DNA of 64,000 nt, from contig NZ_CP011266.1 of the NCBI RefSeq assembly GCF_001477655.1, positions 669,001 to 733,000 of the forward strand. The letters are read 5' to 3'. Below are positions 838 to 55,924 of this stretch, piece after piece. Each line of letters opens with the position of its first letter. Position 1 is the first letter of the stretch. The position numbers and the translations under genes are program-made. The DNA comes from Methanobrevibacter millerae. GTDB lineage: Archaea; Methanobacteriota; Methanobacteria; Methanobacteriales; Methanobacteriaceae. Below the pieces are notes generated by a model. That model was not told the DNA's origin, ran no database searches, and saw only the letters and a list, made by a program, of their open reading frames with translations.

Positions 838-2624
838 GGGTGTCCGCCAAAATTAAATTTTAGTTTTGAACCCTATTTTTTTTAGAATATGGTTGCTGTG
901 AGTTGTAATTGATTTTTAATGGATGTACTTTCACAGAAATCTTCTAAATCTTCCGTTGTATTTTCTATTTCTTGTTTTATGTTGTATAATCTGATTAGAT
1001 TGTATGCTAATGCATCTAGGTTTATTCTTTCTTCTGTTTTTATCATTCCGACGACTACTTCTTTTTCTATTTGGAATTGTTCTTTGAATATTCCGAATGG
1101 TCCTTCAACGCTTGATCTTTTTGCGTATTCGTCTTTATATTTTTGTTTTTCCATTTTGTGGTTCATTGCTTTTTGTAATTCTGAACCGTATTCTGTGATT
1201 GTTTTGTGTGTTTGTGAGGATGCACAGCATTTTGTTCGTGCATTACAGTTTTTACATGCATTGTAATTGTTGTATATCCTTTTTACTTTGACTGGTTTTT
1301 TTGAATCTTTGTGTGGTTCTGTGTATTTCGCGTAGAAATGTAAGTATTGGTTTTCTGGGCATTTAAATGCATCTTGTTCATAATCGTATTCAAAGTGGTC
1401 TTTATGGTATGGATTTTCGTTTAATTTTCCTATTTTTTCTTTTGATTGTTTTCTTGTTGGTATTAATCCTTCTATTTTTTCATCTGCTAGGTATGATAGT
1501 GATATTTGATTTAAATATATTGTATCTGCGCTTATGTATTTTGGTTTGGTGTTTACGTTTTGTATTGCTTTTTTAGCGATTGCTGGTAGTTCATAATGGT
1601 CTGTTGGGCTTTGTGTGACGTTTATTGCGCAGATTAGTTTGGTGTCGTAATCGACTGCAGATTGGATATTGTAGGCAACCATGTAATTTCCTTTCTTTCC
1701 TTTCATAAAACGTGCTTCAATATCGTTTACTGGTATTCTATCTTGTCCTGTGAATGTGAATTGTGTTTCTATTCCATACAATAGTTCTAATTTATCTTCA
1801 TCACTCATGTCCTTTTTTTCCAATATTCTTTGGGCAGGTTTATGGAGTTTTTCAAGGCTTTCAGGACTAACTGGGCGTCCTTCGTAGTAATCAACTAATA
1901 TTTTGGTTTCTTTTTTGGAGATTGTGTTGTTGTTGGAATTATATGCTTTTTTGATGGTTCCATCAATAGCAACGTGATTAAATTCCGTAAAACCTTCATC
2001 AAATGCCTTTTTCAATGTCATTTGTAATAATACTTCGAAATAACGACCGTATTCTCTTCGATACCTTTGAATTGAACGTTCAGATGGTCTAATATCGTCA
2101 CAAACGAACCTAAAAATATCATGGTACCTTGCCATGTCCGCAATTATGGATGTTCTATCAATATGCTGGATTTTAGCATAAACAAGCAATTTTAACATTG
2201 AATCTAGAGGTAAAGGCTCTCTTCTTTTCTTTTTCTTAGGTTCATCAATTTCCAAAAGAGGAAAAACATCTTCAATAAAATCACCGACAAAACGAGAAAT
2301 ATGATCCTTCGGAACATTCCAATCTAATGTACTAATGCCTAATTTCGTTTGATTCTTGTCAAATTTTCTTTTAACCATAAACAACAACACCAAAATAACT
2401 TATACCTAATATAAAATATGTATAACAAAGTATATAAACTTAACTATTTAAAAAACAGTTAAATCCAAAACAAAAACTCATAATTAATTAAAAACAAATA
2501 AAACAAAAATTTAATATATAAAATTAAAATTTAAGAATAATGAATTAAAATATTTAAAAAATAGTATAAAATAATGTTAAAATTTTTTTGCACAAAATTC
2601 AAAAATTAATTTTGGTGGACACCC
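838..2624 (-). mobile_element. IS1182-like insertion sequence, intact
   Basis: The element is about 1787 bp, bounded by imperfect terminal inverted repeats. The left end 838-861 begins GGGTGTCCGCCAAAATTAA and the right end 2601-2624, read in reverse complement, begins GGGTGTCCACCAAAATTAA; there are 2 mismatches over 24 bp. Both ends abut GTTA (834-837 and 2625-2628), a probable 4-bp target duplication. It carries one transposase gene on the minus strand. The 2379-2600 stretch is AT-rich end DNA upstream of the transposase with no gene. The intact ends and open transposase suggest recent insertion. Confidence 0.88.
882..2378 (-). CDS. IS1182-family DDE transposase
   Basis: The protein has 498 residues. 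An N-terminal region rich in basic residues (KKKKRREP near 50) leads into a DUF772-like helical domain (PLDSMLKLLVYAKIQ). The DDE core shows D139 (VAIDGT), D285 (YISADTIY) and E425 (SSVEGPFG). A cysteine cluster CKNCNARTKCC (about 375-385) between the last two is typical of IS1182 transposases. ATG at 2378 is chosen because GGTG lies 9 nt upstream; TTG and GTG codons extend the frame five residues further. There is no frameshift or internal stop, so it is probably functional. It is the only gene of the element. Confidence 0.9.
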   Translation of the reverse strand: MVKRKFDKNQTKLGISTLDWNVPKDHISRFVGDFIEDVFPLLEIDEPKKKKRREPLPLDSMLKLLVYAKIQHIDRTSIIADMARYHDIFRFVCDDIRPSERSIQRYRREYGRYFEVLLQMTLKKAFDEGFTEFNHVAIDGTIKKAYNSNNNTISKKETKILVDYYEGRPVSPESLEKLHKPAQRILEKKDMSDEDKLELLYGIETQFTFTGQDRIPVNDIEARFMKGKKGNYMVAYNIQSAVDYDTKLICAINVTQSPTDHYELPAIAKKAIQNVNTKPKYISADTIYLNQISLSYLADEKIEGLIPTRKQSKEKIGKLNENPYHKDHFEYDYEQDAFKCPENQYLHFYAKYTEPHKDSKKPVKVKRIYNNYNACKNCNARTKCCASSQTHKTITEYGSELQKAMNHKMEKQKYKDEYAKRSSVEGPFGIFKEQFQIEKEVVVGMIKTEERINLDALAYNLIRLYNIKQEIENTTEDLEDFCESTSIKNQLQLTATIF

Positions 2625-54300: not shown

Positions 54301-54756
54301 ATGAATTTAATGGATACAATTAAAAAAAGTTTAGGTTTTGAAATCACTGAAGAATCTAGACAGCAATATAGAAGTAATCCAGGATATGGTTCTCCTAATC
54401 GTGGTCCAAGACAAAATCCTAATTATAATAATACCCGTACTAGTCCTAGACCGGATTTTGATGATATAGAACCTATTATTCCTGAACAGCCTTATTATGA
54501 AATTGTTCTAATCAGACCAAGAACAATAGATGATATTAACTATGTTGTTGATCAGGTAATAGAAGAGAAAAATCCTGTTATTTTAGATTTGTCTTTTCTT
54601 GAAAGTGAAAGTCCTGCTAATTTTAAACTTGCTGGAGATAAAATTAAGCAGATGAGAACTCGTTATGGTGCTCAGGCATTATTGCTTTCCCGTACCAGTG
54701 AAAAAAACTTGATTATTCTTTCTCCTAAGAAAGTTAAATTAGTTAAAAAAAGTTAA
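54301..54756 (+). CDS. sepF: Archaeal cell-division protein SepF
   Basis: The 151 residues show SepF architecture: an amphipathic N-terminal membrane-targeting helix (MNLMDTIKKSLGFEIT), a disordered Pro/Asn/Arg linker (15-65), and the SepF core from about 66 (IVLIRPRTIDDINYVVDQVI, NPVILDLSFLESES). It anchors FtsZ to the membrane. GGAGGAG precedes ATG 54301. It is in an operon with DUF1611, and a terminator follows. Confidence 0.92.
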   Translation: MNLMDTIKKSLGFEITEESRQQYRSNPGYGSPNRGPRQNPNYNNTRTSPRPDFDDIEPIIPEQPYYEIVLIRPRTIDDINYVVDQVIEEKNPVILDLSFLESESPANFKLAGDKIKQMRTRYGAQALLLSRTSEKNLIILSPKKVKLVKKS

Positions 54757-54796: not shown

Positions 54797-54800
54797 AAAA

Positions 54801-54888
54801 TTTAGTCATACCTAAAAAATACCAAAACATTTATATGCTACTTCTTACAACATTATAATTAGGTGATGTAAATTTAGGCAAACCTAAA
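54801..54888 (+). promoter_or_regulatory. Promoter flanked by two DtxR/IdeR-like operators
   Basis: Operator 1, TTTAGTCATACCTAAA (54801-54816), and operator 2, TTTAGGCAAACCTAAA (54873-54888, perfect 6-bp arms), are centred 72 bp apart. Between them is TTTATATG (54830-54837), a TATA element predicting a start near 54858. The TTAGG/CCTAA half-sites match those of metal-dependent DtxR/IdeR/MDR1-type repressors. No protein gene follows. Confidence 0.6.
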
Positions 54889-55070
54889 ACACATTGCTTT
54901 TAATTATCAGTCGATGATAATACAATCTCCAAAATTAAATTTCGTTTGAATTAGTTTTCTCACAATTTTCTAATTCAAAATTTAGAAAAAATTTATCTGT
55001 CAGGTTTTTTCTAAAAAATATGTCTGGTGTTTAAAAGCGGTATTAAACACCAATTATTATCTCTTTTTTT
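54858..55070 (+). ncRNA. Candidate structured small RNA under metal-repressor control
   Basis: Downstream of the promoter no reading frame follows; GTGATGTAA is the only start-stop near AGGTGAT. Instead four hairpins occur in sequence: ATTATCA/TGATAAT (54903-54921), TTTGAATTAG/CTAATTCAAA (54946-54979, 10 bp), TTTAGAAAAAA/TTTTTTCTAAA (54981-55015, 11 bp) and GGTGTTTAA/TTAAACACC (55026-55051, 9 bp) followed by a T-run (55064-55070). All stems are perfect. The 5' end is approximate. The last hairpin may instead be a shared terminator for the converging gene. Confidence 0.5.
55026..55070. terminator. Probable bidirectional terminator
   Basis: The perfect 9-bp stem GGTGTTTAA/TTAAACACC has a T-run on the plus-strand side (55064-55070) and, read on the minus strand, ATATTTTTT (55020-55012). 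It could end both the plus-strand unit and the minus-strand TatD-like gene. Confidence 0.55.
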
Positions 55071-55824
55071 AAAAATTAAAAAACTTTTCTGCATTTTTAA
55101 AAGCTATTTTATTAATTTCCTTTTTATTAAATCCTAATCTTGTCAGTTCTCGAATAGTTTTTGGAACGGATAATGGATCTGAAGGTTTGTTGCTTATGTC
55201 GCTATTCAATAAAAATCTATCAAAGCCATAGTTATCTAAAATATCAATGGCTTCATATTTATCCATTTTTTGGGGCTGTACAGTCAGGCCTAAAGTGTAA
55301 TCTGTATCAATTGCCTTTTCAATGACATTTTGGTTAATGTGATCGATTACCACATATTCTGGTGAAATATGTTGGGGCAGAATTTCCAATATTTCATCCA
55401 AAACAGCAGATTTATTTTTACGTGGTGTATGGATGATGACATTTGTTTTTGTTTCTTGTGCAATATCAAGTTGTTTTTTAAAAATTTCATATTCCTTTTC
55501 GGTCAGATTTTCAAGTCCTATTTCGCCGATGGCAACAATGTCTTTATTTTCAATCCATTTATATAAATTTTCATATATTAACCCACCATCAACATTTGTA
55601 TTTGTCGGATGTATTCCTAATGCAACTTTTAGTTCAATACCATGTTCACCTGCTCTTTTTGTATCATAGTTTAAAATTCTCATTAAATGATTTAAAAGAA
55701 TCGTATCATTATCTATCTTGTATGGGTAATATGCACATGTTACTGCAACATCTATTCCAGATAAATACATTTCATTAAAATCTTCACCAGTTCTTGCATC
55801 GGCATGTATATGTGTGTCTATCAT
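55069..55824 (-). CDS. TatD-like metal-dependent hydrolase, archaeal subgroup
   Basis: The 251 residues start MIDTHIHADART and contain LKVALGIHPTN, IVAIGEIGLEN, NVIIHTPRKNKS and FLLNSDISNKPSDP, giving HxH, Glu, His and Asp ligands. It is a distinct subgroup from the TatD at 41086. ATG 55824 is preferred; GTG 55833 is three codons earlier and forms part of the GTGAT site. The substrate is unknown. It ends against the terminator of the candidate RNA. Confidence 0.83.
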   Translation of the reverse strand: MIDTHIHADARTGEDFNEMYLSGIDVAVTCAYYPYKIDNDTILLNHLMRILNYDTKRAGEHGIELKVALGIHPTNTNVDGGLIYENLYKWIENKDIVAIGEIGLENLTEKEYEIFKKQLDIAQETKTNVIIHTPRKNKSAVLDEILEILPQHISPEYVVIDHINQNVIEKAIDTDYTLGLTVQPQKMDKYEAIDILDNYGFDRFLLNSDISNKPSDPLSVPKTIRELTRLGFNKKEINKIAFKNAEKFFNF

Positions 55825-55924
55825 TTCAATCACTTCAATAATTTCGATAACTTTATTTAATTAGTATATTGTTTTTCAATTAAAAGATTATCCTGAATAA
55901 ATATATGCTTTATATATTTTTTGG

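Follow-up and report, generated by a model that had tools for sequence, protein, structure and literature searches.

A multicopy structured RNA of Methanobrevibacter with DtxR/IdeR-like operators and predicted pairing to the ribosome-binding sites of fdhA and fwdF

The window analyzed here is the whole 64,000-nucleotide stretch spanning positions 669001-733000 of the single-contig Methanobrevibacter millerae SM9 genome (2,543,538 bp). At window positions 54801-55070 it carries an RNA gene that is one of four copies in the SM9 genome and is flanked by sepF and a TatD-like gene, the same two neighbors that had been named in an initial annotation of this DNA. The features of the locus, in window coordinates, are as follows:

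54301-54756, + strand: sepF (Pfam SepF), one flank of the RNA gene
54801-54816: operator dyad 1, TTTAGTCATACCTAAA, a DtxR/IdeR-like iron box that precedes the TATA box, with one mismatch to TTTAGGN4CCTAAA
54830-54837, + strand: TATA box, TTTATATG, with a BRE-like run of purines before it
54857-55070, + strand: predicted non-coding transcript, its start estimated from TATA spacing
54861-54899, + strand: 5' hairpin (54861-54869/54891-54899) enclosing dyad 2, as obtained by folding the window copy and 33 copies
54873-54888: operator dyad 2, TTTAGGCAAACCTAAA, an exact TTTAGGN4CCTAAA inside the transcript start
54903-54909/54915-54921, + strand: hairpin 2 (7 bp), whose 3' arm has the 3' tail as an alternative partner
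54922-54936, + strand: unpaired conserved segment ACAATCTCCAAAATT, containing CTCC and near-invariant in the family
54924-54936, + strand: AATCTCCAAAATT, within the unpaired segment, the complement of the ribosome-binding sites at fdhA and fwdF
54945-54954/54970-54979, + strand: hairpin 3 (10 bp), with the conserved loop TTTTCTCACAATTTT and AU-to-GC covariation in 12 sequences
54981-54991/55005-55015, + strand: hairpin 4 (11 bp), with the loop ATCTGTCAGG (family consensus ATCTGCCAAA)
55025-55034/55043-55052, + strand: terminator hairpin (10 bp), followed by the conserved TTATTATCTC and a T-run (whole element 55025-55070)
55064-55070, + strand: T-run, the end of the terminator
55069-55833, - strand: TatD-like gene (Pfam TatD_DNase), convergent with the RNA gene

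The initial annotation had described two DtxR/IdeR-like dyads around a TATA box, four hairpins and a terminal T-run. The dyads and the TATA box are present where it had placed them, to within a few bases, and the T-run closes the element. All four hairpins are there and the lengths proposed for the first three (7, 10, and 11 bp) stand, but the fourth measures 10 bp rather than 9, and the hairpin at the 5' end had been overlooked. In the minimum-energy fold of the window copy, the 3' arm of hairpin 2 (54913-54921) pairs not with its own 5' arm but with the conserved tail at the 3' end (55055-55063), TTATTATC, a predicted pairing that might represent an alternative conformation of this copy.

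A DNA search of the SM9 genome located the three further copies at 1444947-1445170 and 1445413-1445702, arranged in tandem, and at 797390-797667. Homologues occur in most genomes of the same genus: a covariance model (R1) built, like the family alignment, from 33 full copies matches 62 of 67 Methanobrevibacter genomes, with one to five copies in each and tandem copies in some, and finds no match in 72 genomes from other genera of the Methanobacteriaceae. An exact-pattern scan of named genomes likewise returned Methanobrevibacter records only, mostly gut and rumen metagenome-assembled genomes. Gene order recurs among relatives, with the RNA gene next to SepF/TatD, rubrerythrin/VWA, or FeoB, and feoB is its neighbor at 11 of the 59 loci checked in relatives. 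The SM9 tandem pair (1444947-1446282; L035, 1952-2684 and 2741-3283) ends convergent with the gene for rubrerythrin, an iron protein; the same neighborhood was found again in L010, L012, L094, and L100, and the rubrerythrin ribosome-binding site, ATTGGAGATGT, shows fairly good pairing to the targeting segment, at -12.4 kcal/mol. The SM9 copy at 797390-797667 (L036, 1905-2162, - strand) adjoins a MarR-like gene and a flavodoxin/ferredoxin-like gene and has two exact iron boxes, and its targeting segment has diverged to TATAACTCTTCAAAC; it is perhaps a paralogue with other targets.

Several computations establish these copies as a structured, conserved, non-coding RNA family. The window copy has a fold z-score of -5.2 and a paralogue one of -7.5, and in neither case was any of 200 shuffles as good. 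Across the alignment, 91.4% of cells are paired under the proposed stems, compared with 35-53% when the 3' partners are slid by one to three columns. The comparison of relatives for covarying stems that the initial annotation had called for revealed two-sided changes in 13 of the 32 pairs and a covariation score of 0.185, against 0.114 in shuffled alignments, none of 500 reaching the observed value; shuffling loses relatedness, so that the slid control carries more weight, and the two controls agree. The 5' hairpin is retained where dyad 2 is missing (AGTGATGTG...CACATTGCTT) and hence seems to be a feature of the RNA itself. A hidden conserved small protein, also suggested as a check, was sought and none was found, the longest ATG reading frame having a median length of 17 aa and being unshared among copies. 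The locus thus agrees with the original description of an expression unit lacking a coding frame, with its own TATA box (where TTTATATAC is conserved in the 33-copy alignment), covarying hairpins, and the terminator that a structured non-coding regulatory RNA of the iron-sparing type would carry. No Rfam 15 family, the bacterial iron sRNAs in that collection included, was matched at gathering score by the window copy or its three paralogues; low-scoring matches of the window copy at a permissive threshold (LhrC, HIV_FE, and others) were at chance level and were set aside.

Dyad 1 matches TTTAGGN4CCTAAA exactly in 31 of the 33 aligned copies and with a single mismatch in the other two, the window copy included, while dyad 2 is exact in 24 of the 33, carries one or two mismatches in five, and is absent from four. 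The exact dyad occurs at 13 places in the SM9 genome, five of them within the RNA copies. The initial annotation had proposed scanning for the same operator at feo genes, and there it is present, with four dyads (one exact, three with one mismatch) upstream of feoB-feoA at 505106-505428 (L053, 5107-5429), an unusually dense cluster of four dyads in about 320 bp. Furthermore, a one-mismatch dyad at 947037 lies directly upstream of a DtxR-type repressor gene (947108-947812) whose product shows Fe_dep_repress, Fe_dep_repr_C, and FeoA domains, so that the RNA copies, feoBA, and this dtxR-like gene have an operator in common. One-mismatch matches number 36 in SM9 versus 31 for a reversed control; as they are mostly background, only exact sites, clusters, and sites at metal genes were counted. 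Single dyads also precede or lie close to genes for a P-type metal ATPase, a small ferredoxin, and an ABC exporter pair as well as the fwd cluster and the fdh cluster (876359, 1156886, 1990965, 2376307, and 2383991 in SM9); these possibly delineate an iron regulon, and with one-mismatch matches near background they serve as leads only.

The published DtxR/IdeR operator motif, TAGGTTAG(G/C)CTAACCTAA (PMC12327846), resembles the sites described here in its TTAGG...CCTAA half-sites and in forming a palindrome at iron genes, whereas the operator of the window RNA has a shorter center (TTTAGGN4CCTAAA) and stands in an archaeal promoter context. At the level of sequence, the RNA gene shows the TTAGG/CCTAA half-sites, common to iron-uptake genes, that characterize a DtxR/IdeR regulon, and its promoter has the operators through which an iron-responsive repressor would act, as at the promoter of an iron-sparing small RNA. 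The dyads at feoBA and the FeoB neighbors in relatives favor iron over manganese as the signal, and the regulator to which the operator belongs is most likely a DtxR of the iron type.

The conserved unpaired segment points to candidate targets. Its AATCTCCAAAATT portion is an exact complement of two ribosome-binding sites, those of fdhA, encoding the full-length alpha subunit of formate dehydrogenase (TIGR01591, above cut-off), and fwdF, encoding the polyferredoxin of formylmethanofuran dehydrogenase (eight Fer4 matches; NF042909, above cut-off), so that, as a prediction, the family has the conserved segment complementary to iron-protein mRNAs that is typical of iron-sparing small RNAs. The pairing energies for fdhA (-15.7 kcal/mol) and fwdF (-15.5 kcal/mol) rank first and second among 372 gene starts (mean -5.9, sd 2.6 kcal/mol), a set comprising an evenly spaced 400-kb sample, the window, and the fdh/fwd region, in which fdhA, fwdF, and their neighbors were added to an otherwise evenly drawn gene sample. 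When the flanks of the segment were shuffled and CTCC was retained, the fdhA energy was reached in 2 of 300 trials and that of fwdF in 3 of 300. CTCC is the general anti-Shine-Dalgarno core, and some match to many genes is expected. The complement TTTTGGAGATT occurs 18 times in SM9: three times in RNA copies, at four copies of a repeated element, and at 11 other places. Six of these 11 are ribosome-binding sites located exactly 16 nt upstream of an ATG; they belong to fdhA and fwdF, to a flavoprotein-like gene that has a cysteine motif, to the gene of a MATE-like protein, and to two further genes; the four gene starts with an 11-nt match other than fdhA and fwdF are not all those of iron proteins. 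The 13-nt complement AATTTTGGAGATT, RNA copies aside, is found in SM9 at fdhA and fwdF only.

The fdhA site, TTTTGGAGATTATAAA, is conserved throughout the genus: in 32 distinct sequences no position falls below 90% conservation, and the 5' flank of the site is variable. A sister genus, in which the window RNA was not found, has TGGAGATTATAAA as the corresponding site, where the conserved TTT stretch is missing; the site of G029, which is without either of the two RNA families described here, reads TTGGGGTTTGTAAAG. In two genomes, G027 and G116, fdhA was detected without the site; as fdhA follows a different gene in these two and in G008 and G013, they offer no clean test of pairing. The fwdF site and the end of the preceding reading frame overlap, which partly constrains conservation of the site. 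Outside gene starts, TTTGGAGATTGT at window positions 1914-1925 (SM9 670914), with near-identical repeat copies at 1165687, 1417514, and 2136556, could by its sequence bind the RNA. Pairing of the hairpin 4 loop with the fdhC leader, TTTGGCAGAT, is exact in SM9, yet it is found in only 2 of 30 genomes and was dropped; when gene starts were searched with the hairpin 3 and hairpin 4 loops as seeds, no target was singled out, and the matches of ATCTGCCAAA are largely those of any gene starting ATG GCA GAT, mvhG included.

A second RNA family, unrelated to the first, also matches the fdhA site, over a longer stretch. Its members are about 125 nt long, with their own TATA box, a 5' hairpin (GATRTGAA/TTCATRTC), and a terminator, and no iron box was seen at their promoter. 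All 14 copies used carry CATTTTATAATCTCCAAA, 18 nt that are perfectly antisense to the fdhA site with its AUG, and in many of them the antisense stretch is longer; the invariance is a selection effect, the copies having been retrieved by the CATTTTATAATCTCCAAA pattern itself. The corresponding model, R2, matches 59 of the 67 genomes of the genus (two weakly) and, weakly, two genomes from other genera; it additionally matches the antisense strand of fdhA itself. The SM9 copy, at 1907486-1907612 on the + strand (L056), has the same 15-nt core, and relatives are L331, L337, L342, L347, L353, L356, L364, L368, L371, L377, L314, and L315. The existence of this family suggests that small RNAs act on fdhA in these archaea and that the two families have AATCTCCAAA in common. 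Because the second family matches the fdhA site as well, conservation of that site is not creditable to the window RNA alone.

We infer from these features how transcription, the metal sensed, repressor binding, and target repression could be connected. When iron is plentiful, an iron-loaded DtxR/IdeR-type repressor would occupy the dyads around the promoter and keep the RNA gene off. As iron falls, the repressor would be released, and the RNA would be transcribed from four loci and accumulate. The unpaired AATCTCCAAAATT would then pair over the ribosome-binding sites of fdhA and fwdF and block their translation, less of these iron-rich enzymes would be made, and iron would be spared. That the window holds a DtxR/IdeR-controlled, trans-acting small RNA gene, present in four SM9 copies and sparing iron by blocking fdhA and fwdF translation, is in our judgment a probable reading, and the iron- or manganese-controlled regulatory RNA initially proposed is, in its general outline, supported at the level of sequence.

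Three other explanations bear on this reading. The RNA might be controlled through the iron box and have another main job, binding a protein or pairing with other mRNAs through the loops of hairpins 3 and 4, with fdhA and fwdF as secondary targets. The loops TTTTCCACAATTTT and ATCTGCCAAA are indeed as conserved as the CTCC segment, and the SM9 copy at 797390-797667, which is without that segment, retains both of them; the loops may bind other mRNAs or a protein, and no convincing partner was found for either. The CTCC segment, however, is near-invariant, its two best matches being ribosome-binding sites of Fe-S enzymes; as an account of the main function, this explanation seems rather unlikely. 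A signal other than iron, manganese or another metal sensed through an MntR-like member of the DtxR family, would leave the same RNA in place. DtxR-family proteins sense iron or manganese, and among NCBIfam models the repressor scores best against one for MntR, though far below the cut-off of that model. FeoB, moreover, is able to carry some manganese (PMC8351635). Against this stand the location of the dyads at feoBA, the C-terminal FeoA/SH3-like domain of the repressor, and the nature of the predicted targets as Fe-S enzymes, which together make a switch of signal improbable.

Lastly, the presence of several copies per genome, in tandem in some, could be taken to indicate a mobile repeat; or, instead of a trans-acting RNA gene, the element could be a cis-acting leader. 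The copies nevertheless have their own promoter, operator, and terminator, and they show compensatory changes and a synteny shared among relatives. A leader or riboswitch role is unlikely because the downstream neighbors checked in SM9, TatD and rubrerythrin, are both on the opposite strand; where a sense gene downstream or marks of transposition would be looked for, antisense neighbors and shared synteny are found instead, and we regard both forms of this explanation as very improbable.

An iron-sparing small RNA gene, the reading preferred here, has counterparts in bacteria. FsrA, RyhB, and PrrF are iron-repressed small RNAs that lower the synthesis of iron proteins, with Fur control and bacterial chaperones; FsrA covers the Shine-Dalgarno sequence with a C-rich motif, and PrrF and others have duplicated copies. 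Their sequences are unrelated to that of the window RNA, and their control by Fur contrasts with its DtxR-type box. They are mentioned alongside IsrR of Staphylococcus aureus, which is iron-repressed via two Fur boxes and has fdhA among its validated targets (PMC9410917). IsrR and the window RNA are alike in their two operator boxes, their hairpins and terminator, their single-stranded C-containing segments over the Shine-Dalgarno sequence, and their AT-rich genome (PMC9410917). IsrR differs in being bacterial, in its control by Fur and not DtxR, and in its longer C runs, with no sequence or Rfam relationship, while the window RNA is multicopy and its targeting segment is a CTCC in an AT-rich stretch. 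IsrR would be the closest functional parallel to the window RNA. MrsI of Mycobacterium tuberculosis, an iron-sparing RNA under a box for the DtxR-family regulator IdeR, targets hypF and bfrA (PMC8628891); it resembles the window RNA in its DtxR-family control and in the iron-sparing role predicted for the latter, and differs in being bacterial, with a 6-nt seed and a single gene (PMC8628891), and no sequence relationship was found. Among methanogens, sRNA162 and sRNA154 of Methanosarcina mazei are trans-acting, and sRNA162 masks a ribosome-binding site, but they serve methylamine and nitrogen metabolism rather than iron and belong to an unrelated lineage and sequence (PMC3510493, PMC3600222). 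With no Rfam match to the small RNAs compared, the window RNA would combine iron-sparing-like action with a position outside known sequence families.

Iron-sparing small RNAs are known from bacteria, and, as far as searched, such control has not been found reported for archaea. A literature search returned no report of the window RNA or of any iron-responsive RNA in Methanobrevibacter, which is weak evidence, subscription papers being mostly outside its coverage. With a confidence only a little better than even, we regard this as the first archaeal iron-sparing small RNA regulon: DtxR-controlled, multicopy, and genus-specific in rumen methanogens, repressing formate dehydrogenase and the first enzyme of methanogenesis, which is rich in iron, with a second, unrelated RNA converging on the fdhA ribosome-binding site. 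To our knowledge, very few archaeal small RNAs are known with both their signal and their target, and this family offers a likely signal in the iron box, specific candidate targets in fdhA and fwdF, and about 150 natural variants. If the reading is true, archaea would have arrived independently at a solution that bears a striking likeness to IsrR of Staphylococcus, with fdhA a target of both, and in rumen methanogens the supply of iron would be linked both to the use of formate and to the first methane-forming step.
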